Shown piece after piece: positions 3,165 to 46,151 of a DNA stretch of 64,000 nucleotides (positions are counted from its first letter, which is position 1; each line of letters opens with the position of its first letter). Position numbers and translations under genes: made by a program. The notes under the pieces were generated by a model that was given only the letters and a program-made list of their open reading frames with translations, searched no databases and had not been told where the DNA came from. The stretch covers positions 1 through 64,000 of the forward strand of contig JAJIRX010000622.1 in the NCBI GenBank assembly GCA_023853785.1, written 5' to 3'. This DNA comes from Psilocybe azurescens (Eukaryota > Basidiomycota > Agaricomycetes > Agaricales > Agrocybaceae).

Positions 3165-6100
3165 ATGTTCAGCCTATTCAACTTCAATACACAACCTCAA
3201 CCCCAACCTCAACCCAATGCAGACGTTTCAATGGATAACTTTGACGCAGTGCATATTTTATTTATTAACTGTAAAGTTGTTATTTTGAGCTAACTGATCT
3301 GCAGAATCGGCCTGGTGCCGTGCAACAACGCTCCAAACTTATACCCGTGACCAGCCATCCTTTAGAGCCTGCTCAAGGTACCATTCTCCCGCCGTGAATC
3401 CAGTAACAATAGAACCCTCCAGTACCGGAACAAGCCAGGCTATCCCAGGCATAACTGCCATGGCCGTCGATACAGCCACCAACCCAAACCAGTCTACGCC
3501 GGATCAAGAACTGCCCATCACCCCACGGAGCGAGCAACAACACATCTCATATCCAAATGATATGAACCTTGACGAAAACACGAGGTCAAGTAGATCCTCT
3601 CCTAGGCAACAAAGCCATTTTGCAAACCTCCAACATACACCCGCCGCTTTCTCAACAGCAATTTGCCAATGGCCCTCACAGAAACATCGAGCCAACATAT
3701 GAACACATACCTCAGCCATCGACTCCAGTTGCTGGTACCGAAGCCGTTCACGTTGAAGCCGTTCGCATTCACATTAAAACCGACACCAACTAAGCATCAA
3801 ATATCGATCGGAAGGCGGAAAGGGCCTGGGCAGGAAGGTTCAGCAGACCACGTTGGTCAAGCGGCGCAATGACGAACCTGGGGTTTATTTACAAAACACG
3901 GAAAAAGACACAGAATGTGTAAGTTAACCATTCCTGCTGTTAGATTAACAAGGCTCACCTCATAATAGATCAAAACACGGGTCATCGAGCAAAGTGATTT
4001 TACCACAAGGCAGATGCTGGACCTGAAGGACAAAGAAATTCGCTGGATGAAGGAGAAAGTGAGTAATCAAACTGCTGCCTGATGAGTATATCAGACTTAC
4101 CATATAATAATAGATGGACAAACACCAGGACAACTTCAACAAAGTCTTGGAGGCGGTTATTGGCCTTGGAGCAGTCAAACAAAGAGCATGCTGCTAAGTT
4201 GGAAGCGACAGAAGCGCAGCTCGAAAAAGAAACGCCAAAGAATACAGGAAGATAGAAGAGAAGCGATTTCACGAACGTCAGGTAAACCAGGACAGTGCCG
4301 ATAGGTTGAAAGCGACAGAAGCACGGTTCAAGAGGGAAACGTCTGGAACGGCAGGAGTTGGAGGAGAAGCGAAATCGCGAATATCATGAGAAGCTGTGTG
4401 TATTGGAAAGGGGAGCGGGAGACAGCTTGAAGAACATGCACGCGCTACTGTAAATGCACCATCAGGTATTTAAGACTTCATATTCCGAAATATTTAAAAC
4501 ACAAACTTACGTTGACCAATCTAGGATTACCATTCCCCACTCCTACTACGGAGGGTGTTATCCCGTCAACCAGCAGGCAACTTCCTCAGGTATCCAGCCA
4601 TAGTCATCAGGAAGGAGGCGATGTAGATATGGACAATCATCCACAAGGTCAGCCTCCTGCTCCAATAGAGCGCGCGACCACGGTATCACAGGTCATGTCC
4701 ACCACAGCGGCACCGCAAGTTACACTTACTCCCACTCCAATGTTCGACATGCATACTGCCTCCAGTAGCGGACAGTCTCATCTAGCGCCCGGAGAGGGTC
4801 GGCAAGGAGATAACGACACAATGATGGGTGAAAACCCACAAAGCCCTTCCAAAGACAAGGGCAAGGCTCGCTCCTGTTGCTGATGAAAGCTTCGGGGGAA
4901 AGAGTTTGACCATGTCGTATCCGATGACGATGACAACGAGGTGAGCCATCCTGTTCCTAATTTTATAGTCATGCTGACGCATTGAAAGGACGATGAAGGG
5001 CTTCCTCATCGTGTCCCACCACCATATAAATTCAAAGCGTCCACAGGGCGGGGCAGGCCCCGGCTGAAAGCTGTCTATGGTGACAATGAGCCTGCAACAC
5101 CGTCTACCTCCAACAGTCCTGGACAACAAATTATTCGCGGCAATGTTGACGTTGCGCAAGTCGAGGAAATTACAAAAACAGTTCTTTCGGTCTTGGCGAC
5201 CACAGGTGCATTGCCAAGTGCACCACGGACACCAACCAGAAGACAGAAACACGCTTCAGCACTGGTGAAACAACCGGCTACGAAAGCCTCTAACAGTCCA
5301 TCTAAGATAATCGGGGTAAGTTCATAGCACATTCAAATCTTAATGTGGGCTAACCCACCATGCGTATCTATCTAGAAAGCAGTTCGGCTCCACATGAATT
5401 CACTTATTGGAATCAAGAAGGATGACCAGATCCTAGGCGTCAAACCGCCTCTCCTGAATGTTGTCGAAAAATTCGCAATTGACGAAAATCCGGTCAGCTG
5501 TCCAAGCCTAGCTCCGCTGAATTTCTGCTTCGAAGTCAAACACAATCATCCATGGAACGAGGAGTTGGTCAACCAGTTCATGCAGTCCTTCTTGTTGAAG
5601 CATAGCCTTCAATCCGAAGACCAGCCAGTCGCTTATGCCGGCTGTTAAACAACGTTTCACGATCCTCAAGGCGTTTGTAAAGGAACGGCCGAAAGAGGGA
5701 GAAGACGAAGTGCAGACTCGTGAACGGGTGGAGAAAATCAAAAAAGTAAGAAGGCGAGGTCGCGCCGGGACACACGACGCCCGTAGGGTGGGTTTGTTTT
5801 TCGATTTTCTACATTTTGGGAGACTTATGCAATTCTAGTTGTCGAGTAACCGACTCGAAACCGCCAACGACAATCGAAAGGGAGGAGCGGATCCTGCTTG
5901 GGAGTTTCTGTACCAAGTAGCACACATGCTGACCGCGGAGGGCATGTCTTCTGACGAGAGTGGACCTGAAGAACGTAAATTCACAATCAGGATCCGACAG
6001 TGGCGCAGCGCTGCATTGATTCCGTACCTGACAATCATCGACCGTGATATGAACAAGAGGACTGGGCTGGGCAACCCTGTGCCAGGGAACCCGGCTAGAC

Positions 6101-31829: not shown

Positions 31830-31980
31830 TGTTACGATTTCAAGTTAGAGTCACGCAGTGTGTGTAATCTAACCACCAATTGTTGTACAAGAACAAGTTT
31901 AAGTTCAGGTTGAGCAAGTAAAGCAGAGTAGATTCTCAAGAACTAGCTAAAGAATACAGTAGATGCTTCCTCGTATAAAT
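31830..31980 (+). repeat. LTR copy A, 5' portion (split by the KDZ element)
   Basis: Begins TGTTACGATTTCAAG. Its continuation is at 45,857-46,151, ending CTTGTCGTAACA, so the LTR had TGTTACGA/TCGTAACA ends and a length near 446 bp before the insertion. Homologous to LTR copy B at 46,475-46,878 (opposite orientation) and to the fragment at 63.6-63.8 kb. Confidence 0.75.
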
Positions 31981-32111
31981 CACATAGGGCAGCTACATTG
32001 TAGCGAGTGACATGGGCCGTAGAACGCACACAATGTATACGTGTGACACGGGGCCATAGAATTCTATGGAAACCAAGTACATTTTAGTGTGGTGGGAATT
32101 ACTTACAAATG
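31981..32111. repeat. Left terminal inverted repeat of the KDZ element
   Basis: 131 bp, inverted at 45719-45849. The only difference is an A versus C in the AAACCA(A/C)GTACAT segment. It contains a perfect inner palindrome (CCATAGAATTCTATGG). Confidence 0.95.
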
Positions 32112-32332
32112 AATGACTCAGAGCCGACTGATACTTTACTTCACCTGTGGCTGTTCAAATTGTGAGGTCGGCTACGAAAATATCGGCCACATGCCGACCT
32201 AGATGAAATAAATTATTGTATTACTTCAGCTACAGAATTGGGGGCTTCAGTTACGTATGTGGAGGCCAGCGAGTATCTTCTAAGCGTTGAGGCTGCAACT
32301 CGGTCCCGACATTTCTCGGCCAGCATTCAGAT

Positions 32333-33424
32333 TAACTATCATCCGATAGTGCCATTAACTCTTTATCAAACTTCCCAATTGCATCGATAGTTCGATCATT
32401 GAAATTCTTGAAGGCTTTTGAGCTCCATCACTTGCTCTAAGCTTCTCCCATTCTGCCATGTAAAGCCGATGGCTAGCGTCTTTGTAGGATATACCGAGGG
32501 TTTCACGAAGATAATTGACCTCAGTATGTATTTGTAGTAGCTCACGCTCGGTCAAATGCTATTATCCATAAATTAAATAGTGTTCAACATAAATAAAGTC
32601 ATGCTTACAGGATCGGCAGGGACCAAAACTGTGTCACCGAGAATAACAAAATCCCGTCCAGTACTGTTTCCTGACTGAGGATTGAGTGAGTTTGGATTCT
32701 AAAGCGAGACAATGAAAACGAATGATAAATGGTATGTAGGCAGCACAGAAGGGCGGCAGATTAAATCGGCCCCGATAACTGCAGCCGCCACACGATACCG
32801 AAGTCAAATCAGCCTCAAATTATGTAGGTCAATATATAGCTATCGCATCATATTGATCTCTACAAGCTTTCAGAGACCTGATATTCAAACATAAAAAGAG
32901 CAGGAACAGATATCTGGGAAATCGGGCCGATATGTTTACACGGCCACCGACTTCGGAGATAAATCGGGCCCGAGCTGTATGGCAGCGTCAGCGGGGCCGA
33001 CAATATGTCGGCACCGATGCAATCAGCTAGTCAGCCGTTCACAGCTGGAAGAATAGTTATGAGTGCAACGAAAGGTATTTACCCCACCAGGTTGAGTCTC
33101 CAGCCGTAGATGATCTTGTTGGTGCGCATTAATGAATTCTTTTCTGGTGGCAGAAACCAGGAATTCGGGTACGTAAATCTTCTCATTATCGGGCCCGATC
33201 AACTGCATGAACCCTGCAGGAATGCTGCCATACTCCCGAGAAGAAACAGCGTCCGGAGTAGCGATTGGCTCGGCATCAATGTGTAAAGTCGGCTGAATAT
33301 CTGGTCGGTGCCGATCATTAAATACCGCCGATGTATGATGGTCGATGCGAGATGACGGCGTACCTACGGATCTGAACATATCATGAGAGTCTGTCTGAAT
33401 GTCGTGTACATGGCTTTCTTGCAT
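32333..33424 (-). CDS. KDZ-element gene 1: SYKDASHRLYMAE-family protein
   Basis: Minus strand, at least two exons. The first exon (33,424 to about 33,085) includes FMQLIGPDNEKIYVPEFLV and ends near a donor after QPGG. The second has LTERELLQIHTEVNYLRETL and the striking GISYKDASHRLYMAEWEKLR (32,440-32,490). After a one-base frame change at an A run, FKNFNDRTIDAIGKFDKEL ends at a TAA (32,333-32,335). I recall the combination of a 'PEFLV' segment and a 'SYKDA.HRLYMAE' helix from Agaricomycete ORFs near KDZ transposases. The role is unknown; the helix looks like a protein- or DNA-contact segment. Divergently transcribed from gene 2 with about 210 bp between starts. Confidence 0.6.
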
Positions 33425-33637
33425 CGTTGATAGTGATATAATATGTTGGAGGAGATCAGAATAGAGATTGCAACTGGATTAGGGAGTTATTTGTCACTGT
33501 TTATATCACATGACTGTTGATTTTGCCAGCACCTTACATTCTGGCAGCTTTACCGTCTGCTACAATCTTCATCTGCCGACTGGCGCCCGAGAAACAATAC
33601 ACACTCAAAAATCTCAACTACATTCGAGTTCATCATT

Positions 33638-36245
33638 ATGTCTAATACTATCCATATTCCGTCTGCAACCGACCTCATCAAAGCCCTTCGTGATGTCGAT
33701 GATAGTATCCGCCGTGGATTGGCCGATGGCAAAGTTCGCGAGTGTAATAAAGGAGAAGAAACATGAATTGGTGAGAAATCATACGCTGTTACAAGTAAAA
33801 TTCACTGAAGCGACCACTCAGCGAGCGATATTCGAACTTAATTGTAAAACCGGTCCCGAAGTGGCGCATTTGCAGGAAGTCTTCGACCAGCCGATATTTT
33901 TCTGGAGCTTTTTGAAAGCGTGGAAAGAGGTAAAGCAAGCTGGACGCACTCCCGAATTTCTGAGACAGCACATACAAAACATGGAGGCTTTTGACAAGAT
34001 GGTAACGGGGCCGATGAGCCGCATAGCCACTGCAGTAGCAACGCCGGGCATGATATCGCAACCGGCCACACACTCAGTCGTTCAAGACGTGCCTTTGAGA
34101 GCTGGTAACACATCAAACAGCGACGCAATGCGTAGAATACCATCAGCCCAGGATCCCCAACAACCAATGGATGAGCAGATTACCAGACGCGTCCGTCGTC
34201 GGCCGTCACGGGTTCGAACTGAATCGCCCGAATACGAAGTGAGCATCGCGCATGATGCTCAACGCCCACAAATTGAGGCCACACGCGAACTATATGGATG
34301 GCCGAAAGGATTGTTGCCGAAGAAGAGGATGCCACGGACGCCCGAACACCAGCGCGAAGAGCATCGGGCCGCTGTAGTCGGGACCGATCGGCGCCGTCAT
34401 CGACAACGCAACTCAAGTTCAGAATACAGTGAGCATCGTGAAGCACCACGCGAAGATTCTTCCGAAATAGACGAGCTTGTTGAAATTCAACCAAAGCCGC
34501 TACAGGGAAAGCTGAACCCGATACCGTCGCGATCGGTGCCCGACGAGCAAACGCCGACTGCTACGATCGGGTTCAAGGACGTGGAGCATGTTTTTGGTGC
34601 AATCGACAAAAGGTGAAATGTAGTCTCGGAATTAGAGCAATCAGCCACCGCAATAGACGAAAGTCGTCGACATCGAGGAAGCCGAAATCTCGGCGCATCA
34701 TTGAAGTATCGGATGAACCATTGGCTGAGGAGGAAGAGTATGATGAAGAAGACGAAGATGTACAGATGGATATTTTGGAAATCCCTGCTACTGCAGTCAT
34801 GGCAGAATCATCGAGGTCAGCGTGGACACGGGCAGGGACGTCGGCTCGGCATATTCGGGAGGTATCGGCACCGTCTGACGAACATTATACGGGCCGCTTT
34901 TCAGCTATTGAAAAGGGGAAAAATCGTGGTACGTGTCCTGTTTATCTTTTGATTTTTCATATTTTACAATAACCAATAGACCTGCCCAAAGCCACCGACA
35001 ATGAAGAGCTGGCGGCTCGTGTGGACATATTGTCGACAAAGTTGGACTCGGTCACTGCAGATGCCGCCTCAGCGTTATCAATGGCATACGATTGCAATCT
35101 AGCTTGTGTTGAGTTGGAGAAGTCGGCAGCGCACAGACCGAATGCTGGTCTCGGTCACCGTGTCACTCAGCTGGAGGGCAAAATGAACGACATTTTGGGG
35201 AAATTGGATATGTTTGAAACACAATTTTCAGACATTTCCACTATTCTCCGCAAGTTAAGTGCAAATGGTATGCTCATTTTGAATCAAGTTGCATCGGGGC
35301 CGATCCAGTCGGTAGAGGACGACCTCATCGGCAACGATATGGAAGTGGAAAAGGACGCAGAATTGGTATCCGATGGTCCATATGAAGCAAAGAATGTCGA
35401 TGCCAATTCCATCACGCAGACGGTGGAATTAAGTGCCGACATCGGGAGCGTAGCAGGCGGTGAATCGGTACCGACAATAGTGCCGATAGTTGAACCGCGC
35501 CGACAAGACGATTCGGATTCCGGCCCCTATGTTCCGATATCACCGCCGATGGTAGAACAGCGCGGGAGGATGATTCCGTTTCCGGCCCCGATCCCTCAAA
35601 CTCAATGATACGCGTTAACGACGCACAGGAAGAACAACGAGAACTTATCTCGTCGGTTCGTAAAGATTTTCCTTCCGTGCAATTGATTCCGCCAACACCC
35701 AATAACTTCGCGAGGAGCAGGCCACATACAGTGCCCACATTATTGTAGCCGGTACTCATCAAGCTGCTTCAACGGTGCCAGGAAACGCCACTTCAGCTGA
35801 GTTGGCTTCATATACCACACACACTTCTCCCACTTTGCAAGCACTCGAAAGTCTGCCGAACTTGGTTGAAACATCAACGCATTTGGGACCGATTACTTTC
35901 GGTCCCGATGATGTCAATGTCGGGTCCGAGGTCGGTAATGGCGTTGAATTGTCGGTTGCCGGCGGCTCCGAGTCGGTCGATATCGGTAGAGAGTCGGCAG
36001 ATATCGGTCCCGAACCAACTTTGTCGGCTGCGCCTCCTCTTACTCTTGTTGCAACGCAGTCTCTTCTTACTCCGCCTCTACTATCACAGAATGATACAAA
36101 TGACCGTCGCCGTTCACCACGTCTCGCATCACCCCGCCCTTCGCCAATGGTGTCCCGTAGTCCGACACCTGGACGACCAGGGAAACGTCCACGCACTGAC
36201 ATTTCGTCTGCTACAGAGAAAAGCAAAAGACCTCGTCAGGGATAG
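33638..36245 (+). CDS. KDZ-element gene 2: coiled-coil protein with basic RRRSPR tail
   Basis: Start ATG at 33638 (MSNTIHIPSATDLIKALRDV). A frame change near 33,740 leads into HELVRNHTLLQVKFTEATTQ, then FFWSFLKAWKEVKQAGRTPE, an Arg-rich middle (RRVRRRPSRVR, LYGWPKGLLPKKR), an acidic block (EEEEYDEEDEDVQMDILE, about 34,730-34,780), an intron (34,929-34,980), and an exon with a coiled coil (LAARVDILSTKLDSVTADAA; VTQLEGKMNDILGKLDMF). A Ser/Pro/Ile/Gly-rich region with IG-P and VG-E repeats follows, encoded by TCGGNNCCGA copies. The end is RRRSPRLASPRPSP..PGKRPRTD, stop at 36,245; one or two frame joins lie at 35,608-35,775. It looks like a nuclear DNA-binding accessory protein; no enzymatic domain seen. 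Confidence 0.55.
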
Positions 36246-36364
36246 TTCCAGATCTCAGTACATATCATTGTTGGGTCAGATGTAGATTTTTTGTAATGCC
36301 TTTCACTGCTCTGATGTTCAATAAATTTGATTCTATTTTGTTCGATAATATAAGGAAGTGCAGT

Positions 36365-38745
36365 TTATCTGTGCCTTGTACTGCGTCTAACTGGTATCCC
36401 AGCCGTTAATGTGGCTGATGTTGATCCTACATCGCCGGCCGCTTTCTTTTGTTTTCCTTTCTTTTTATGTGATGTAATAGGAACAATATGGTAACTTTGT
36501 GGTTCTGTGTCGACTTCTATCGGGACCGATGTCGGGGCCGCCTGTGTAGAGATCGGTGTCGGCATGTGCGTCGGGACCGGTGTAGGGCTCTGCATCCGCA
36601 CCGATGTAGTGATCTGCGTCGGGGCCGATGTGTGGATCTGCGTCGGGATCGGTGTAGGGAGCTGCGTCGGGACCGGTGTAGGGATCTGCGTCGGGACCGG
36701 TGTAAGGATTGGGATCGGGACCGCTGATGGGATCTGCGGCACCGGTGTAGAGACTGGTGTCGGTGTTGCCCTTGGAGTGGGCATAGTTGTACCAAGTAGC
36801 CTTGGATCAATATTACTGTTGTTAATGACGTTGGTTGCTCCTCGTGTGGATAAACTTGAATCCAATAGGTACATAGGTATACCGTCTGTGGGACCATTCA
36901 CTGGGAATTGGTGTTCAACTCCAGATGGAAAAATTGACATTACTTCTTGCTGAGTGGCATAGACATCCTCTCTGAAGATTAAATTTGGGATGTCTTGCTG
37001 GATGCTTTCCATATCTTCATGAATTGCATCCTAATTATTATAAGATTGTAAGATAGTGGTTCGGTATCAGCAATAATCGGGACCGATACACTTACAATCT
37101 GCCTGACATCATGTCTCGTGCCCGATATCAATGTCGAAGTTGGTTGATATTCTTCAATGTTTGGCGTGATGTGCATATTGGTCAGTGCTAAAGTATTTTC
37201 CACTTGATCCGACTCAATTTGGCATCGACTTGTTGTTTTATTTCGACGTTTATTTCTCGCTTGACGTCGGCCCCGATCGGCATCGGCAACGGTGTCGGGA
37301 TATTCTGAGGGAGCGGGACCGTCTTTATGTTTAATAGACCGAAAACGAAAAGTGTCTTGTGGTTGATATAATTGCTGTCTTTTGATCAAGTGCCCAAAAA
37401 GCATTGTATGCTGTCTTTATGGAGATTCCGGGGTTTGTAAATATCATGTTGGGAGGTAAATATTTCGATTCGATAAAGGTCGCCTGAGCGTAGGATATTT
37501 GAGTGTATGGAACTTTCTCTGTTTTACCACCAGTGGCAAGGTCTATCTATAATTCAGGCAAATTGGACTCGAGGCATGCCTGAACTAAACTCACAGTAAT
37601 GATTATTCACGTACAGACTGAAAGCTTCTTCCCAGTCACTTTTTGTCCAATCTTTATCTGGCAAAGGGATAGGTATGATTGGGAAACCATTACTAGTTTT
37701 TCCCAATGTAAATATTGGCTTCTTTGCTGTTGCTCGGTTAACCGTGAATGCTAAGTGAGGGTTTTGCTTGAGATTTTGCAAGCCCGTCATATAATCCAAT
37801 ATGTTTTGTTTCATTCGGTCGACGTCAGCCCGATATGTACTCATGAATGAAGGGGCGGGAACACCCATCAAGCTGGCAATTTGTTCGTATCTAACGCATA
37901 ATCAGCTGTGTTTTTCAATGAGTTGCTGGAATATGCCGATCCAACAATTATGTCGGCCCCGAGAAAACTCGGCTGTTATCTGCAATCACGTACCCATCGA
38001 CTGCGACCTTGCCATCTGCTAATGGGAAGCAAACAAAAACCACACTGGTCATCCCCATCTCTTTATATTGGTCATTCATTGTTTGATCAATCCGCCTGAC
38101 ATGATATTTTTGGCCAAACTGTGATATAATTGTTAGGTCGGCCTCGGACACGGGGCCGTATGACCGACCTTGCTTGTGTGTGCTCGTCATACCCCGCATT
38201 GAACACCTTTCTACTTCATTGTCAATGTCCTTACGTTCATTCTCAGTCATCTTGTCCCAGATATTCTTCATGGCGACTGTCCTGTGGCCAAACCAACCCG
38301 AGGTCTCTGCTGAAGCCTCTTCAAGACCCATAATATTTGCGATTTCCGCCCAAATTTTTGATTGATGATTGTACCAGAGTACATCTGATCTTTTGGGCGA
38401 AAGTGGTTGGATTTGCGAGCCATTCCTCGTTCAATTCGCCAATTGTTTGAGCACCAGGTGATGATCTCCTGAATTATCTTCAGATACACGCTCTTCGAAG
38501 TTGGCTACATATCACCTTACCTTTGTCCAAAGGCGACTTTCGGTGTCATCCTTAGCCCTTTTCCCTCGACTGGCCCAGTAATTGAATATTGCGACCAGTA
38601 TGTGGTTTGTTAAGATGAATAGACGTTCTTTGACTGTCCTTGCTTTCACAAAAGTTTCTTTGAAAGGCAGAATTTGCTGTAGTTCTTTGACACTGAACAT
38701 CTTCGCTTTCCGTTTCTTGTTTTGTAATACTATGGTTGTGGTCAT
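36365..38745 (-). CDS. KDZ-element gene 3: conserved Agaricomycete protein with (TPVPTQ)n linker
   Basis: Minus strand, several exons. The N-terminal part (KMFSVKELQQILPFKETFVK) is followed by ILVAIFNYWASRGKRAKDD, an exon with WCSNNWRIERGMARKSN (a typical 'NW...R' helix), then IWDKMTENERKDIDNEVERC, YKEMGMTSVVFVCFPLADGK (38,010-38,080), and PIFTLGKTSNGFPIIPIPLP with KDWTKSDWEEAFSLYV (37,600-37,700). A variable hydrophilic part ends in tandem TPVPTQIPTPVPTQ-like repeats (36,550-36,780) and a basic end IPVRRSTRHR, stop at 36,365. I recall the N-terminal architecture as widespread in Agaricomycete genomes next to transposons. Role unknown. It points away from the transposase gene with about 185 bp between starts, so the two may share a promoter. 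Confidence 0.55.
36520..36735. repeat. TCGGNNCCGA/CCGG-type repeat array in gene 3
   Basis: At least ten spaced copies of words such as TCGGGACCGA (36520-36529), TCGGGACCGG and TCGGGGCCGA, about 24 bp apart. On the minus strand they encode the tandem TPVPTQ/IPTPVPTQ linker, so the protein repeat and the DNA palindrome array are the same thing. Confidence 0.85.
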
Positions 38746-38930
38746 ATTGTTCAGTGAAAATACCTGTAAAAATGGCACAATGCAAGATAAAGAAATGTGG
38801 ATGTGAGTTAGGAATGGACCTGAAACATTCACAGACTGTGAGTTGCGACAACATGCCTCATGGAAGCCTCATGTTCATTTAGTGCCCAGCCCCGTGATGA
38901 CCACATACATCTCGCTTTTCGCCTTCAACC
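38746..38930. promoter_or_regulatory. Short divergent intergenic region between gene 3 and the transposase
   Basis: About 185 bp separates the ATG of gene 3 (minus) from the ATG of the transposase (plus). No other place for their promoters is visible, so a bidirectional promoter is inferred from layout alone. If gene 3 has an upstream non-coding exon (possible acceptor at about 38,768) the true promoter is even shorter. Confidence 0.35.
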
Positions 38931-41900
38931 ATGAACTCTTCCAGTGGACCAGCTAACAAAAGACAAAGAAAGTCAAAACACTTGGTTCAAGGAAGTGTGG
39001 AAGCCTCTCAGGCGGTTACCCACCTCTCCGATGTCTTCAGCGGTCCCAAATCACAGCGAAGAGTGTTAGTGCCGCTTGTGACAACTATCGCAGAAGATCC
39101 AACGTTGAGTGACCAAACTAATCCAAGAGAACATATGGTTAACCACAATATGTTAAACGATGATGGAGTGTCAACGGAGCCCTTGAATACGACCCGTCAA
39201 AAGAAAAACAAGGTAACCGTTTATTAAATGAAGTACAACATTTTTCAAACAGTACTATGCAGACGCAGCAAGAATATATGAGAGAATGGGTAGATAGAAT
39301 AGAAGACTTACTTCAAGCATCACTTGCTTTCGAGAGACCTGGCCAGCCGACAAGCAGCACTGCCAATCTTGTCCAGCTGGCTCCTGGGCCATATGGAGAT
39401 GTATAGATTGCACACTTGCAGAGCCACTTTGTCGCAAATGTATGCGAAATTCGCATCGGGTTGCACCTTTCCATCGAATTGAATGCTGGGCACAAACGCA
39501 CTTCCGCAGAGCCGAGTTATGGGAAGTCGGTTGTTACATTCTTGTCCCACATTGTGCAGGGATTGCTATATGTGAATCACTACTGTTCCAGATTAAATAT
39601 TTGGAAACTTTACAAGAATATCCAGACCGGCTAGAACAGGAAAAATTAGATACATTGTATGGCCCAGCCGGTTCGGGGCCGACTTTCACTAGTTCGGGGC
39701 CGAGATTTACATATACGGGGCCGACAGATACTAGCTCGGGGCCGACAAGCGCTCGCTTCGGGGCCGACAGACTCTAGGTCGGGGCCGACGAAAAGTTCGG
39801 CATCGGCTAACTACACGGTCCCAAAACAAACGGCATTTGGTGTACAATCTCAAGCACGTATCCAATGGACGTCAACAATGAAGAAATAAAGGATGGATAT
39901 TCTTTCCATTTCTTGCACCATTGCAACGTAGATGAAGAAGATGATCCTGACAGCTCAATTGACAAAGACATGACCGAAGACGATGAAGGTGGTGATCCTG
40001 AAGCGGATGTTGAAGGATTCAGTGAATACCTAGTCATTGGCGATTTGACCAACGAGCTGACTGGTGTCGGGGCCGATCATATGCCTGAATACCGGGCTTA
40101 CAGCACGGCTGAACCCGGGGCCGATTGTACTCCTGAACACGGGGCCGAGTACATGGTGAGCATCGGGGCCGACACATTTTCGGCATACACGGCTGATCAT
40201 ATTGACATTCAGAATGAACTTAATACCGATAGTGTCCACCCAAGCTTCCCAGTGGCTGATGGTTTAAATAATACCTATGTCAGGATTTTACACACCAACG
40301 GTATTCATCATATGGCCATGGTAACTTGTCAATGCCGAGGGAGAATTCGGTCCCGATGGACCTGGTTGCCTGCCGGCTCCTCCCTGCCAGCTTTAAAAGA
40401 TACGGACCCTCTTCTCTGTTCAACTCATGGATCATTTTCGTCTTTGTAATTTGGAGCTGAAGGCGACAGCCTATCAGTTTTATCAACTTATCCGCAGAAT
40501 GACAACACCAATCGGTCGGACCGAAATTGTCAATGTTTATCATGAGTTTCGCCGTATTTCTCGGCTCTGGAGGTGGCTCAAGAAATTAAGGTGGGCTGGG
40601 TATGGCCATAAAGCAGAAGATCCTCGCAACCCACCAGCTGGTTCATTGTCTTTGTATTGCCCTACATGCCCTCAGCCTGGTATAAACTTACCCACTGATT
40701 GGAAGGATGATCCGAATCGGTTAGTACAATTTACATCTTATAAAATTTTGTTTCTAACCTGCTATCAATACAGTACAGTATACAAGCGTATGTTCGTGAC
40801 AGATGGCAATTTCAAAGCCGACCATGTTCGGCAAAAATATAACAATGATATCTGGCTGATGGATGGGTCTGGAATGGCACCCAATAAGGATGATTATCTA
40901 ACTTTTTGGAATCTGCAATAGATCGACTGACGGTATGTGACGTCCGGGGCCGATACCGGCCGACACAATTTATCTGATGGCTGAGTTTCAGAAAGCACCA
41001 TGTGAAAATACGTTCAGAGCAATTACAAATGCACTACTGTCAACCAAAGCATGTGATCGCACAGGAAAGGTAGCCTTTGCATGCGCTCGGCATGGCTGCT
41101 TGGCGCCCGAATTCCTTGGCGGACTTGTTCAAAGGTGAACAACAAAAACATTGATTATGCATTACTGCAGGCCATCAAAACCACACATGTAGAGCCCCGA
41201 ACAAGGGCTATTTCTCATCTATGACATCGTCTGTACCTGGATTGTCTATCTCTATGACCGAATCGGCCACTTGCTCCCTGCCGGTATTATTATTGATCAG
41301 GCGATTGATTTATTCCATGTTCATGGCCACAAAGACGTATGTTTCTTTCGTTTTGCCACAACTTTTGTCCCCAGTGCTGCAGTAGTTGCTGGTCAAATTC
41401 TTGAATCACTATGGTCAAGTCTCAATGTAATCTCGTCTTCGGTCCGGACAGCAAGTCTCGCACACAGGGAAGAAGTACTCGACAATCACGCTACAGATTC
41501 CAACTACAAAAAATGCTCGGAATTACAGACGTTCTTTGCAACAGATATACCGATGCAATTATTATGGTGGGGCGGGCCGACTCTTATTTCCTTGAATTTT
41601 CAGGGGATATTGCACAGGCGACACTTAATGAATGGGAAGATGAAATTCAGAGTGTTGAGGCAATGCGATTAGCTGACATCAAAAGAATGGACATTTATGG
41701 CGCCCGGCTGCCGACATCGTCGACCGATGATACGGGTGAGGAACACGGCACCGATACCGGTCCCGATATCAATTCCGGTACAGCAGCCGAGATGTGGCTT
41801 CGATTAGCTTTGCTAATTGAAGAAAAGCAGTAAGTGGAGTCACACTTTTATTTTTGCTCACAATGTGATCACTTTCATGTCAGAATTGAAATTCAAGATA

Positions 41901-42986
41901 AAGTTCGTCGGTTAGGCTCCGGCCGCTCGGGACCAAGACCAACAAATAGTTATGCAACTGCGTCAAGCGTTGACTATGATGCTTGCAGAACTTAAAACAC
42001 GACAACAGCATGCTGGGGTGCACGATATTCAATGTGGGCGGCCAAGTATGCCACTCAACAGTGAGACCGAATATGACGACATTGAAGAAAATCCCGATAT
42101 TCCTGGTGGACCGGCCATGCAAGACCGTTCTGTTCCTGAAGATCACAGCCCTCCAACTCCAACAATCCTGAGTGTTGAACGCCAAATACTTTCATTACCA
42201 TCCAATCACAATGTTTCAGCAGGCTACGAAGGATTAGAAATGGAATTGAGAAAACAGCAAGCACGCAATCATATAACGAGGATTCGGGACATTGTGGCCG
42301 ATATCTCGTTTCTATATCGATACGTGGTGAAGAGAGGGACTCGAACCAGCATTCGGTCTAATGGTCAAAAGAAAGTGAAATCTCTGAATCACGATAAAGT
42401 ATTGCATGCCCGCATATATTCGGCATGTCGGTCCCGCCTTGTCGCACTCGGCTGTGATCAAGAATTCCTTTCAATTTTCTGTCTACTTACACGCAATGAC
42501 CTCAAGGCAAGTACAGCTATATGGAAACCAAACTTAATGGGATCTTCCACCTTGGAGTTGTCGTGGATTTGGAGAACTGGCCGATGGTATTTGTTCGGGA
42601 ACATGACCGATGCCGATGCCGATCATCGCATCGGGCCCGACACATTACAGCGATTTCAACTTGAATGTACGTAACTTATTCTTATTATGTTTCTAGAGTA
42701 ACTTTCAACCGATTTAACAGTCAATCGAGTCCACTGGCTTCGTGCTCGGGCCCAGAAAAATAGGTGGCACGAAGAAGTTGTCTTAGTGGTGTATGAAATG
42801 CAATGGACTGTTAGATATTTTATTCATCGTCGAGAAGAGTGGGCCCAAGCCGCTCAAATGGAGGATATCAATTCGGGCCCGAGAGCCTACGCCTATCGGC
42901 AAAGTACTATGTGGTATAAATATGCGGTCATAGCCGATCATGCCTTTAAAAATAGCAACGACTTATATTTATCCCCGTTTATTTAG
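38931..42986 (+). CDS. KDZ-superfamily transposase with CxC2 cysteine cluster
   Basis: The moving enzyme of the element. Basic N-terminus (NKRQRKSKH), intron at about 39,211-39,252, TQQEYMREWVDRIEDLL, then the CxC2 cluster: CQSCPAGSWAIWRCIDC, CRKCMRNSHRVAPFHRIECW (39,355-39,490). A GP-rich insert encoded by five TCGGGGCCGA copies and an acidic block follow. KDZ core: VTCQCRG, LMDHFRLCNLELKATAYQFY (40,425-40,484), VYHEFRRISRLWRWLKKLRW, LYCPTCPQPGINLP, FVTDGNFKADH (first acidic residue), FACARHGCLAP, LIYDIVCTWIVYLYDRIG (second), HVHGHKDVC, ILESLWSSLNVIS (third, Glu). Where I recall an acidic DGE motif this copy reads AGQ. C-terminal RLVALGC, SWIWRTG, VHWLRARAQKNRWHEE, YEMQWTVRYF, stop about 42,986. 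One-base frame changes near 39,340, 40,395 and 41,512, the last two at A runs. Confidence 0.85.
39673..39788. repeat. Cluster of TCGGGGCCGA palindromes in the transposase gene
   Basis: Five copies at 39673-39682, 39694-39703, 39736-39745, 39758-39767 and 39779-39788, with a sixth near-copy (ACGGGGCCGA) between them. They encode a GP-T/S repeat between the CxC2 cluster and the KDZ core. Confidence 0.9.
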
Positions 42987-43052
42987 TTATGTAATTAGGC
43001 ACTACTATCAGATAGATTATCTTTGCACACCGCCCCTTGAAAACATTCCATC

Positions 43053-45421
43053 ATGGCCAATAAAGAACTTTCAATCTACAACCCACTCACTTCTGTGGCT
43101 GGTGCTCGTTATTCGAACCATTTCGACATACAACAACTTCGTGTACTATGCTGAGTCTAGATTTCGGGCCGCACTGCTTGCGATTTCTGAGTCGACAAAA
43201 GAACAACAGGGCGTGGAAACAAAAGTTTCTTTGTGCTGAAGTTGTATGTACTGGATCTATTTCAGAAATTTGAAGCTTACCCGATTATAATATAGGAGTT
43301 GATTTTATTTTTATTGGCCAAGCATCAGCGCTCGGCCTTCCCATAATCATTCCTATCATCGTTCGGTCATTGGCGGCTTCGATTCTTGGCGTCCCCCTTG
43401 ATCAATATCCACTCAAACTGTCGAACGATCTTTTGCGGTTATTGGATGCCGGTGTGGATAAGGACAGCCCGGTTCGGCTGGTGGACAATTACCTACATGA
43501 TTGGTGGAATAGTGGAGCTGAAATTTCCATGGATTACACTTTGAAGCCAATTGTCATCGCGGCCGCTTTGCGAATGCATGCAGGTAGCGGCTTGCAGAAA
43601 ATCGTAACCGACTTGTTGCCTAAACCATCGGGCATGTCGGTCCCGACTATATCATGTGGCCGATGCAACAAATACCTCAATCTTGCCATTGGACTCCGTG
43701 AAGACCTCATGACAATTTCATCATCTATTCAAGCATCACAGACCAAAGCCGATGCCGACGCCGAATTTAGCATGCGTCGGGCAGCCGGGTTTCATCTGGT
43801 GCATGAAGCAGTTGTTCTGAAAGAACAGCAAACAGGAGATCCCGTTCCGATCGACGAAGAATCGGCGAAACGATCGGCGTCGGGTCCGTACAGCCGAGCA
43901 ACAAGTAAGACTTATCCCGATAGCTTGGATGATGTTTTAATCACTCTGACGATCATGGCGTATGGCCATGAATGCTGCGGATCAATTATCTACGCTCAAG
44001 TTGCTCCCAACTTCATCGCAGAAGTGGACTTGGGGCGCTGAACTTACGCCAACCGACCTGATGGCCCTGGCAGCGGATCCGTCGGCACAAAAGCTTCCTC
44101 ACTCTGGATATTCACATTCACTGCCTGAAGGTCGTATTCATAGAGAGTGGTCTTCCGACCCTACACATCCAACAGAGTTGTCAGTTGCGTCGGCTATCGG
44201 GCCGAAACAGCCGACTTGGCGGCCATCCCTTCCATCCCTGATGTTATCGGTTTATTGCCCACAATTCGCCACACTACTTGGCAGAATCACGGACTCCATA
44301 GCTCAAGTCAATCGTACAGTTCGCTCACATTCAGTGCCGATTCAGACGGCCACGTCGGTACCGACGGCGGAAGTCTTGTCGGCACCGGTGGCGAAACTTT
44401 ATCGGCCCCGATGATGGAACCCACGGCGGTGCCGATTGACCATATTAGCAGAATCGGGATTCAATCGACATCGGTCCCGAATCTTGACTTTGTGGCTTCT
44501 GCCTCAGACGCTGCCGCAGTCTGGAATACATCATCTGGCTCCAGCAATAATAGTCTTAATGTCCATCTCCGCGTCTCACCCACAACGATGCCATCAAATC
44601 ACCCGAGTCGCTCCATGGCCGCACAGGCAGCTGCAGTTTAGTTGCGCGACTCATCCGATAATGAGTCGTCCACCAATGAATCTGAAGAAGCATCTCAAGT
44701 GGATGCTGCTGATTTGCAGCTGCCTGGGCGATTTCTTCTGATGATAATCTCGCTTCTGACGAAGCCGATCCAGACAATGCCCGTTTTGTTGAGTCGAATA
44801 CTCTGGCCAATTCACTTGAAAATCTGCACATTGGCAGATTTATAGGTCCCTCGGCATCGGCTGCTATGTGGTCCGATTCATCCGATAGCGGCGCCGAAGA
44901 CGTTTAGGGACCGATTGCTTATCCCGGCAATACTGATTCTGTCGAGCTCAATGATCCAGCTCATTCATTTGAACATCCGCACATTGACAGACATGTAAGT
45001 GCTTCGGAAGCAGCTGCTGTGTGGTCCGATTCATCTGTTAGCGGCGCTGAAGATGTTTCGGGACCGGTGGCCGGCCAACAATCAATTAGTATACGTACTG
45101 GCTCCATTACCTTGCCAATCGGACCTGCTGAAGTTGCGGATGTTTGGTATTCCTCGGACGAAGATGAATCTCTTGTTTCACAATTAATCGCGCCAGCCGA
45201 CCGGCCTGTGTCTCCAGCCGAATCTTCAATGAGTGTGGTTTATCAAGGAACTAATGTCGATACTGTTACTCCCACTCGAATCACACTTTCTCGTCCGTTC
45301 TCCCCCCTCGTTTTTTGGTTTTGTCGACGACACTTGGCTTCCAGCCGATGATTATGCCGATGGTTACAGCGGTGAAGAACAAGATGCAGATGATGAGGAA
45401 GGTGGTGAACTGACGTTTTAA
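43053..45421 (+). CDS. KDZ-element gene 5: membrane-anchored or hydrophobic protein with acidic WSDSS repeats
   Basis: Starts MANKELSIYNPLTSVAGARY, then an exon after an acceptor at about 43,296 gives VDFIFIGQASALGLPIIIPI, a possible membrane helix, followed by ILGVPLDQYPLKLSNDLLRL, HDWWNSGAEISMDYTLKPIV, CGRCNKYLNLAIGLREDL (43,660-43,715) and a charged helix. After frame joins near 44,040 comes a long acidic, Ser-rich tail with a repeated motif of about 60-65 residues: SAAMWSDSSDSGAEDV (44,855-44,905), EAAAVWSDSSVSGAEDV (45,010-45,060) and VADVWYSSDEDESL (45,136-45,175), each preceded in part by an HPHIDRH/NLHIGRF segment. The end is GFVDDTWLPADDY..GGELTF. One in-frame TAG (about 44,906) interrupts the repeat. 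Function unknown. Confidence 0.5.
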
Positions 45422-45718
45422 ATGATTTGATGGAGCCATATATTGTCATTTTGATAGATTTGAATTGCATCTCTGTTTTTCTGTTTGCTTCATATGCTGA
45501 TATTGTCTGAGGCCGAGTTCTCCTACCCGACCATCCTGCCGAGAAATGCATAACGGGTTTGAATTTCAGGCGGTTGACATTATATTCACTCCCAAGCAAG
45601 TCATAGATCATAGCTGAATGTATCCTCTACTGAGCAAACTACTTTGGTCAGCTTGTGGCGGATATCTTCGCCGCCGACCCTACCAGCATAGAATTACACA
45701 GCATCTACCGATTTGCTA

Positions 45719-45849
45719 CATTTGTAAGTAATTCCCACCACACTAAAATGTACGTGGTTTCCATAGAATTCTATGGCCCCGTGTCACACGTATACATTGT
45801 GTGCGTTCTACGGCCCATGTCACTCGCTACAATGTAGCTGCCCTATGTG
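45719..45849. repeat. Right terminal inverted repeat of the KDZ element
   Basis: Inverted copy of 31981-32111; ends CCCTATGTG directly before the TATAAAT duplication. Confidence 0.95.
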
Positions 45850-45856
45850 TATAAAT

Positions 45857-46151
45857 ACTATGAACTGTACAGCTAGTTGAAACGAGATCGAATGTTCATC
45901 AGCAGATGTATATAAGAATAGGAGAAACAGATCGAGTTGAAACGAGTTTGAATGTTCATCAGCAGATGTATATAAGAATAAGAGAAACAGATCAAACGTT
46001 CATCAAAAGATGTATCATAAAAGATGGAAGTGAAAGTAAAGTTCATCAGAGCGTGTGATGATGTATCAATGATGTGAAAGATGACAAAGAAAAGGAAAAG
46101 AAAAGAAAAGAAAAGAAAAGAAAAGAAAAAGAAAAAAGACTTGTCGTAACA
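45857..46151 (+). repeat. LTR copy A, 3' portion
   Basis: Continues the LTR begun at 31830. Includes two copies of a GATGTATATAAGAATA-containing unit, an (AAAAG)n tract (about 46,085-46,135) and the end CTTGTCGTAACA. A copy of the 5'-side flanking block follows. Confidence 0.75.

Follow-up and report, generated by a model that had tools for sequence, protein, structure and literature searches.

A complete five-gene KDZ transposon in Psilocybe azurescens with dispersed CGG-N2-CCG sites and a candidate zinc-cluster protein to read them

The segment from 31981 to 45849 of Psilocybe azurescens contig JAJIRX010000622.1 (assembly GCA_023853785.1) is a complete KDZ transposon of ~13.9 kb. It lies within a 64,000-nucleotide stretch of DNA that was analyzed as a whole and is called the window here. 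Our main reading, to which we assign a probability of roughly 0.64, is that this complete element with its conserved gene module encodes a Zn2Cys6-type protein, the product of gene B, that binds the palindrome CGG-N2-CCG as a family-specific self-address. A preliminary description of this DNA mentioned neither the CGG-N2-CCG sites scattered through the element nor its Zn2Cys6-type gene, and it also missed the change of spacer in a sister clade.

The element is bounded by 131-bp terminal inverted repeats (TIRs). The left TIR (31981 to 32111, plus strand) starts with CACATAGGG, and the right TIR (45719 to 45849, minus strand) terminates in CCCTATGTG, giving element termini of the form CA..TG. 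The TIRs are identical at 130 of 131 positions, the lone mismatch being at position 96. The 7-bp sequence TATAAAT directly flanks the element at 31974 to 31980 and again at 45850 to 45856. When the two flanks were joined over one TATAAAT, the resulting 224-base query matched at least 40 places in the same genome at 93 to 98% identity (40 of 486 candidates scored), and these places contain TATAAAT in a single copy. The boundaries and the 7-bp target duplication are therefore real, and the preliminary description was right to propose one complete multi-gene KDZ transposon with 131-bp ends, one mismatch, and TATAAAT on both sides. A 7-bp duplication was found in all seven elements with both flanks readable (9 end pairs examined). 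Seven further copies were fetched in full after a TIR search that scored 40 of 118 candidates. Copies C92 (13,899 bp, 99.2% identity) and C33 (13,877 bp, 99.1%) have the ends and content of the window element, as do C447, which has an additional 7.8-kb insert, and C781, which has a 5.5-kb insert and one end at a contig end; these four copies enclose the same five genes. Among five copies, 100 indels were unique to one copy, and the 79 single-base indels in this set look like assembly noise.

The five genes lie in the order A-B-C-D-E. Gene A, the module's outermost gene (approximately 32355 to 33424, minus strand), has at least two coding stretches. Gene B (approximately 33638 to 36245, plus strand) encodes the Zn2Cys6-type protein, in which the cluster is followed by a likely coiled coil, as judged by eye. 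Gene C (approximately 36365 to 38745, minus strand) and gene D (approximately 38931 to 42986, plus strand) each have several coding stretches, and gene E occupies approximately 43054 to 45421 on the plus strand. Relatives of gene C adjoin KDZ genes elsewhere, and those of gene E lie 3' of KDZ genes elsewhere. Automatic splicing of the window copy yielded partial gene models only; gene ends are approximate because broken frames give such partial models. The gene B intron at 34929 to 34979 is common to the annotated relative P0001, and several frames of the window copy are broken. Of the five multi-exon genes claimed earlier, the five genes stand, with relatives elsewhere, and the multi-exon structure is borne out for gene B by this one intron.

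Pfam profiles identify gene D as the probable CxC2-KDZ transposase of the module. The KDZ domain (PF18758) scored 64.3 bits in one exon frame against a cut-off of 26.6, confirming the KDZ motif described earlier in the gene at about 38.9 to 43.0 kb. The CxC2 profile (PF18803) scored 24.8 and 18.4 bits on two separate exon frames, below its cut-off of 27, with fragments spanning positions 69 to 105 and 25 to 54 of the 107 profile positions. Pfam gave no match to gene A or gene E and none above cut-off for gene C. In this genome, 170 exon-level KDZ matches were found. All five genes, with order and orientation kept, are present in five divergent relatives, and partial sets are present in more. 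This recurrence shows that the genes form a conserved module; the earlier view of the four other genes as cargo or accessory subunits thus fails for random cargo and survives as membership in that module. A TET/JBP gene inside the element was considered and rejected, since none of the 15 TET/JBP matches in the genome is on the window's contig.

The zinc-cluster coding stretch of gene B lies at 34527 to 34621 on the plus strand. Its frame and cysteine pattern are broken in the window copy, and the frame is open in C33, P0001, and P0004. Among five element copies, only C33 has the whole pattern, six cysteines spaced C-X2-C-X6-C-X9-C-X2-C-X6-C, in one frame. The same pattern occurs in five of the six genome relatives L056 to L061, while in L060 the two halves lie in different frames. 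Annotated relatives were examined by reading. Among the five Psilocybe cyanescens relatives on the spacer-2 side, the pattern is whole in P0001 (CVT25_003919) and P0004, shortened in P0002, and absent from P0003 and P0005. Among the four on the spacer-3 side, P0007 (CVT25_004981) and P0008 have X12 in place of X9, P0006 has a last gap one residue short, and P0009 is without a cluster. The Zn2Cys6 consensus is C-X2-C-X6-C-X5-12-C-X2-C-X6-8-C, and the spacings in C33, the five genome relatives, P0001, P0004, P0007, and P0008 fit it. The matching Pfam profile (PF00172), whose cut-off is 21 bits, gave weak scores: fragments reached 22.2 and 18.2 bits, and whole proteins all stayed below the cut-off. 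Profile positions 2 to 14 align to the second half of the cluster, where the basic half apparently lies, and the Leu3 structure 2er8 aligns crosswise to the cluster, with insignificant scores. The halves are thus apparently swapped relative to Gal4 in both clades, as far as these alignments indicate. AlphaFold modeled the zinc-cluster fragment (5 rows) with low confidence (pLDDT, 48). Protein database searches with gene B, which reach only relatives with common 5-residue words and scored 8000 candidates each time, returned P. cyanescens proteins only (5, 4, and 4 matches).

CGG-N2-CCG occurs 59 times in the 13.9-kb element and twice in the remaining 50.1 kb of the window. Across 200 dinucleotide shuffles of the element, the mean was 2.2 and the maximum was 7, and the palindrome ranked first of 86,016 dyads screened. 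All 59 sites lie between 32301 and 45066. Of these, 31 are TCGGNNCCGA, a sequence whose density in the element is ~120 times its whole-genome density. Two tandem arrays, one at 36554 to 36738 with a 24-bp unit and one at 39671 to 39789 with a 21-bp unit containing TCGGGGCCGA, hold six sites each. At other spacers, CGG-CCG occurs at most 12 times; that value, at spacer 10, is also raised (shuffle maximum, 9). The TIRs contain no exact site, and each has a one-mismatch site, in the left TIR CGGGGCCA at 32049. Genome-wide, there was no clear excess of TCGGNNNCCGA (700 versus 643) or CGGNNNCCG (9546 versus 11,323). Gene-free derivatives retain the palindrome: C415 has 16 sites against a shuffle mean of 0.0, and derivatives with ~90% identical ends keep sites in tandem arrays near those ends.

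A sister KDZ clade in this genome has CGG-N3-CCG instead of CGG-N2-CCG. This dyad is the top dyad in L055, L054, and L024, with 38 sites in L055 and 13 in L054 against shuffle means of 1.5 and 0.6. Both clades encode their own Zn2Cys6-type protein. All DNA in this comparison is from one genome, and since the two groups are sister clades within it, a single joint change of protein and spacer may account for the difference. The underlying KDZ tree drew on 33 loci of this genome, of which L035, L041, L042, L043, and L047, all labelled as having neither spacer, were dropped because they gave no usable match. The labels (N2, N3, or none) follow density thresholds that we set, under which L063 is a weak N2 locus. 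Of the 30 KDZ loci retrieved, 18 entered one dyad screen with a minimum of 8 sites; the N2-labelled L029 has 7 palindromes and falls below it. Two of the six gene B relatives, L057 and L061, carry just 3 N2 sites apiece, and 5 sites at spacer 0 occur in L061 as well. In array-free L064 and L065, the KDZ gene is preceded by ~5.5 kb of examined DNA, not necessarily coextensive with the element, that contained no whole zinc cluster and had no CGG-CCG dyad among its best six. A clean inverted array was sought in the related loci L038, L062, and L063 and was absent. Separately, the direct-repeat dyad CGG-N3-CGG tops a strand-symmetric screen in these three loci (z of 9.5, 8.1, and 8.6); they are near relatives with low-complexity coding sequence, and the dyad is only a lead.

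Other readers of the sites were considered. The CxC2-KDZ transposase, or the protein of gene C or E, might bind them in place of gene B for assembly of a transposition complex, in keeping with the one-mismatch site in each TIR and the arrays near the ends of derivatives. We judge this unlikely, since neither TIR has an exact site and, in our judgment by comparison with other transposons, 59 sites spread element-wide exceed what end binding should require. Moreover, 19 of the 30 fetched KDZ loci are without such an array, indicating that a KDZ transposase as such has no need of one. It is quite improbable that the element exploits a host Zn2Cys6 transcription factor for its expression: such proteins are fungal regulators that typically read pairs of CGG triplets (PMC5559640), but the element families in this one genome differ in spacer and each carries a zinc-cluster gene itself.

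Two further explanations were given still less weight. Coding repeats (SGP, GPD), GC-rich composition, or minisatellite growth could produce sites as a by-product, and indeed several sites, by eye, encode GP-containing stretches and 12 of the 59 lie within the two tandem arrays. However, 47 lie outside the arrays, all three phases of position are occupied (23, 21, and 15), other spacers are much less raised, and gene-free derivatives retain sites. Eight relatives have 33 sites in the stretches that were aligned with the window, and 21 of these fall in columns without a window site. These results leave the by-product explanation with little plausibility. Hardly credible is the idea that host DNA methylation and defense act on the sites, or left them behind as relics, and that they have no function for the element. 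Each site does contain two CpGs, and TET/JBP demethylation is tied to KDZ elements elsewhere (PMC12730594), but CpG content would leave the fixed two-base spacer and free middle bases unexplained, defense should not keep sites in derivatives, and the element is without a TET/JBP match.

The full extent of KDZ elements, said in the preliminary description to be rarely defined, has already been defined for others (PMC12810828). Kyakuja elements of Agaricomycotina, such as Kyakuja-1_LB, likewise combine a KDZ transposase with 7-bp duplications and CA..TG termini, features already published (PMC12730594). The likeness is one of duplication length and termini, and our KDZ tree holds loci of this genome only. 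Kyakuja-1_LB and -2_LB are reported to have a TET/JBP gene and no TIRs (PMC12730594), whereas the window element has 131-bp TIRs and no TET/JBP match, and differs further in its Zn2Cys6-type gene and dispersed sites. Zisupton and Dileera have an 8-bp duplication (PMC12730594), in contrast to the 7 bp seen here in 7/7 elements. Cryptococcus KDZ1, KDZ2, and KDZ3 (PMC12810828) are similar in their long TIRs (139 to 241 bp), size (~9 to 11 kb), and cysteine cluster beside the KDZ domain. They differ in having CxC1 where the window element has CxC2, and duplications of 8 bp (KDZ1) or 4 to 8 bp (KDZ2 and KDZ3) compared with 7 bp; the accessible part of their description mentions no dispersed site array. 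Gene B resembles Gal4/Leu3-type factors (PMC5559640) in the spacing of six cysteines, basic residues adjoining a cysteine, a likely coiled coil (by eye), and a CGG palindrome with a defined spacer, and is unlike them in its location inside a transposon and its apparently second basic half, based on low scores. Zn2Cys6 proteins typically bind CGG triplet pairs as homodimers through a downstream coiled coil (PMC5559640). Among titles and abstract openings, covering few subscription journals, we found no report of dispersed site arrays in the KDZ/Zn2Cys6 transposon literature.

VANDAL elements are plant transposons of a superfamily other than KDZ, and VANC is not known to be a zinc-cluster protein. 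A VANC-like feature, a family-specific motif dense in the element, is present here. As in Arabidopsis VANDAL21 (PMC5735166), the motif is short, rare elsewhere, and partly spread in tandem, a sister family has a different motif, and the element encodes the reader, which here is predicted. VANDAL21 motifs are mainly noncoding, whereas most sites of the window element fall within gene spans, and VANC binding and methylation loss have been demonstrated (PMC5735166), whereas the gene B protein is a candidate reader.

We propose that the element is a KDZ DNA transposon that has moved recently; only its termini and the length of its duplication place it in the Kyakuja type. Its gene B protein would dimerize through its coiled coil and bind CGG-N2-CCG across the element and its gene-free derivatives. 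The sister clade would have a related protein/site system with spacer 3. The presence of sites in element and derivatives, together with the spacer of the sister clade, suggests that they act as a family-specific self-address, each family tagging its DNA with sites of a particular spacer that the protein it encodes would recognize. Most likely, the sites would serve to direct an activator or antisilencing function encoded by the element to its own copies, as with VANC and VANDAL; alternatively, the sites may aid transposition. A wider proposition seems to us evenly balanced: that mushroom KDZ families each pair their own half-swapped Zn2Cys6 protein with matching CGG-Nx-CCG sites (x = 2 or x = 3) scattered through the element, coding sequence included, limiting activation or antisilencing to their own copies and gene-free derivatives. 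Fungi would then have their own equivalent of VANC/VANDAL, independently evolved on the zinc-cluster fold.

Mushroom genomes are rich in KDZ elements, one Pleurotus genome having 36 (PMC7641404), and the KDZ literature available to us offers no explanation of what genes like A, B, C, and E do. A candidate protein/site pair with a spacer code in one element allows a direct test of own-family spacing preference. If true, the proposal would show a transposon steering its own activation without waking other transposons, and would provide naturally occurring pairs of zinc-cluster protein and cognate site in which to study spacing recognition.

The KDZ transposon at 31981-45849 is bounded by inverted 131-bp TIRs (31981-32111 and 45719-45849) differing by a single mismatch, with TATAAAT on either side; comparison of the ends in the window bore out the preliminary description in these respects. 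When its own genome (G000; 70.4 Mb, 937 contigs) was searched, further copies were found on contigs C92 and C33 (99% identity over the full length) and C447 and C781 (~98%), all with the same ends and content. The latter two carry nested inserts of 7.8 kb (C447, L017-L019; 7,833 bp, ACCGG at each edge) and 5.5 kb (C781, L013 and L014; 5,473 bp, ACAGCATCT at each edge). Nine end pairs were inspected, and C781, which runs into the contig end, and C136, where ends from two separate elements face each other, were excluded from the duplication count. The duplication was 7 bp in all seven elements with both flanks readable, the window element included. Transposons of the KDZ type are known from earlier work, as are duplications of 7 bp and CA..TG termini (PMC12730594). 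Compared by description, the window element's 131-bp TIRs differ from two Kyakuja families described without TIRs.

The insertion target (31861-31980 and 45857-45960) is part of a dispersed repeat. When the flanks were joined over one TATAAAT, the 40 scored matches in the genome (40 of 486 candidates scored) each contained a single TATAAAT, and therefore the element inserted into a dispersed repeat, probably a retrotransposon LTR. Five pairs among the scored matches were separated by 6.6 kb on a single contig, as would be expected of retrotransposon LTRs.

Gene D (38931-42986, plus strand; all gene limits are approximate), encoding the KDZ transposase, is marked by PF18758 and, below its cut-off, by PF18803 (CxC2); genes A (32355-33424, minus), B (33638-36245, plus), C (36365-38745, minus), and E (43054-45421, plus) had no Pfam match above the cut-off. 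Using tblastn against the same genome, we found relatives of these four genes surrounding divergent KDZ genes, with the order and orientation of the window kept; identities range between about 34% for B and 76% for one short stretch of A. Complete five-gene sets in the window arrangement occur on C714, C154, C454, C323, and C136; on C714 the series runs E (56.4 kb), D (58.8 kb), C (61.4 kb), B (65.3 kb), and A (66.9 kb), in mirrored orientations. Partial sets occur on C440, C19, C194, and C361, and further KDZ genes on C570, C837, C819, and C603 are flanked by C and E relatives (27-37% identity). Judged by this recurrence, A-B-C-D-E form a module: the non-transposase genes, proposed to be cargo or accessory subunits of one unit, are a conserved set and not random cargo. 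The genome also holds 15 TET/JBP exon matches, none of them on the window's contig; on shared contigs these lie about 20 kb or more from KDZ, among the KDZ matches listed.

The element contains 59 CGG-N2-CCG palindromes (N2 sites), versus 2 in the other 50.1 kb of the window; 200 dinucleotide shuffles of the element averaged 2.2 and never exceeded 7. This dyad ranked first among all triplet pairs with spacers of 0 to 20. TCGGNNCCGA occurs 31 times in the element and 0 times in the rest of the window (genome-wide, 1296 versus 654 for the reversed pattern). All but one of the 59 sites lie inside the five gene spans, at 4.2 to 5.6 per kb, and two tandem arrays hold 12. The two widest gaps between sites are 38151-39674, which takes in the 5' portion of C and the start of D, and 40945-41746, which spans the KDZ match. 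Since only 12 of the 33 sites in aligned stretches of eight relatives share a column with a window site, the sites turn over in part, yet their number persists. Three derivatives, on C480, C415, and C236, have ends ~90% identical to those of the element and no DNA match to it beyond them; they carry 11, 16, and 8 N2 sites (shuffle means 0.4, 0.0, and 0.2), mainly within 175-bp tandem units, a length near the nucleosome repeat. These derivatives (L020 and L021, L022, and L023, respectively) have long inverted arms along with the site-bearing units, and by eye, coding sequence is Copia-like in C480 and pogo-like in C236.

Among the 30 best KDZ loci (the genome has 170 KDZ exon matches), 8 had mainly CGG-N3-CCG (N3 sites), 3 mainly N2 sites, and 19 neither; one of the three N2 loci is a copy of the window element. 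CGG-N3-CCG ranked first in the dyad screens of L024, L054, and L055. Across 13.9 kb pooled from the six relatives of gene B (L056-L061), spacer 2 accounts for 39 sites, spacer 0 for 17, and each remaining spacer from 1 to 10 for at most 7. A KDZ tree with 28 rows places the 8 N3 rows together on one side of a branch (support 83/80), adjoining a set of 6 rows of which 5 are labelled N2 and one is labelled none; near-copies inflate these row counts. The N2/N3 comparison concerns sister clades within one genome. In a subclade of the N2 group (L038, L062, and L063), the top dyad was the direct repeat CGG-N3-CGG, which could be a third type of site or an artefact of the coding sequence. By eye, a Tc1/mariner-like transposase frame (L054:393-1330, C438) adjoins an N3 KDZ gene, and a long minisatellite-like stretch (L064, about 3860-4570, C539) lies by an array-free KDZ gene.

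Gene B encodes a protein with a cysteine pattern of the Zn2Cys6 type. The C33 copy has an open frame with CDRCRRANADC-X9-CFRCNRQKVKC, and the whole cysteine pattern in one frame is absent from every other element copy. The same six cysteines are present in L056, L057, L058, L059, and L061; in L060, the halves lie in separate frames. The named gene B relatives found are all from Psilocybe cyanescens: P0001 and P0004 have the whole pattern, P0002 a shortened one, and P0003 and P0005 lack it. At both N3 loci examined, the halves are encoded in the same order as on the N2 side, with the frame split in each of these loci. Among annotated N3-side proteins, P0007 and P0008 have C-X2-C-X6-C-X12-C-X2-C-X6-C, P0006 is one residue short, and P0009 lacks the pattern; P0006 and P0008 bear the UniRef name Zn(2)-C6 protein. 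The basic half appears to come second in both clades, and the Pfam profile and Leu3 align likewise, at low scores. Zn2Cys6 proteins are typically homodimers, joined via a downstream coiled coil, that read pairs of CGG triplets (PMC5559640). By eye, a coiled coil is likely downstream of the zinc cluster in the gene B protein.

On the simplest account, each family's sites would be bound by its own gene B protein, a prediction to which we assign a probability of about 0.7. A title- and abstract-level search found no published description of a transposon that combines a zinc-cluster gene of its own with CGG palindromes that are dispersed and spacer-specific. In Arabidopsis, the motif bound by VANC21 is short, densely packed in VANDAL21, rare elsewhere, and partly spread by tandem repeats; VANDAL21 copies lose methylation after VANC21 binding, and VANC6 is tied to other motifs, in VANDAL6 and its relatives plus one unrelated element (PMC5735166). 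The likeness, known here from sequence, is close in motif density, tandem arrays, and a sister family with a different motif. Because of this parallel, binding of the sites by the gene B protein may serve activation or anti-silencing of the family; we rate this as about twice as likely as a role in transposition.
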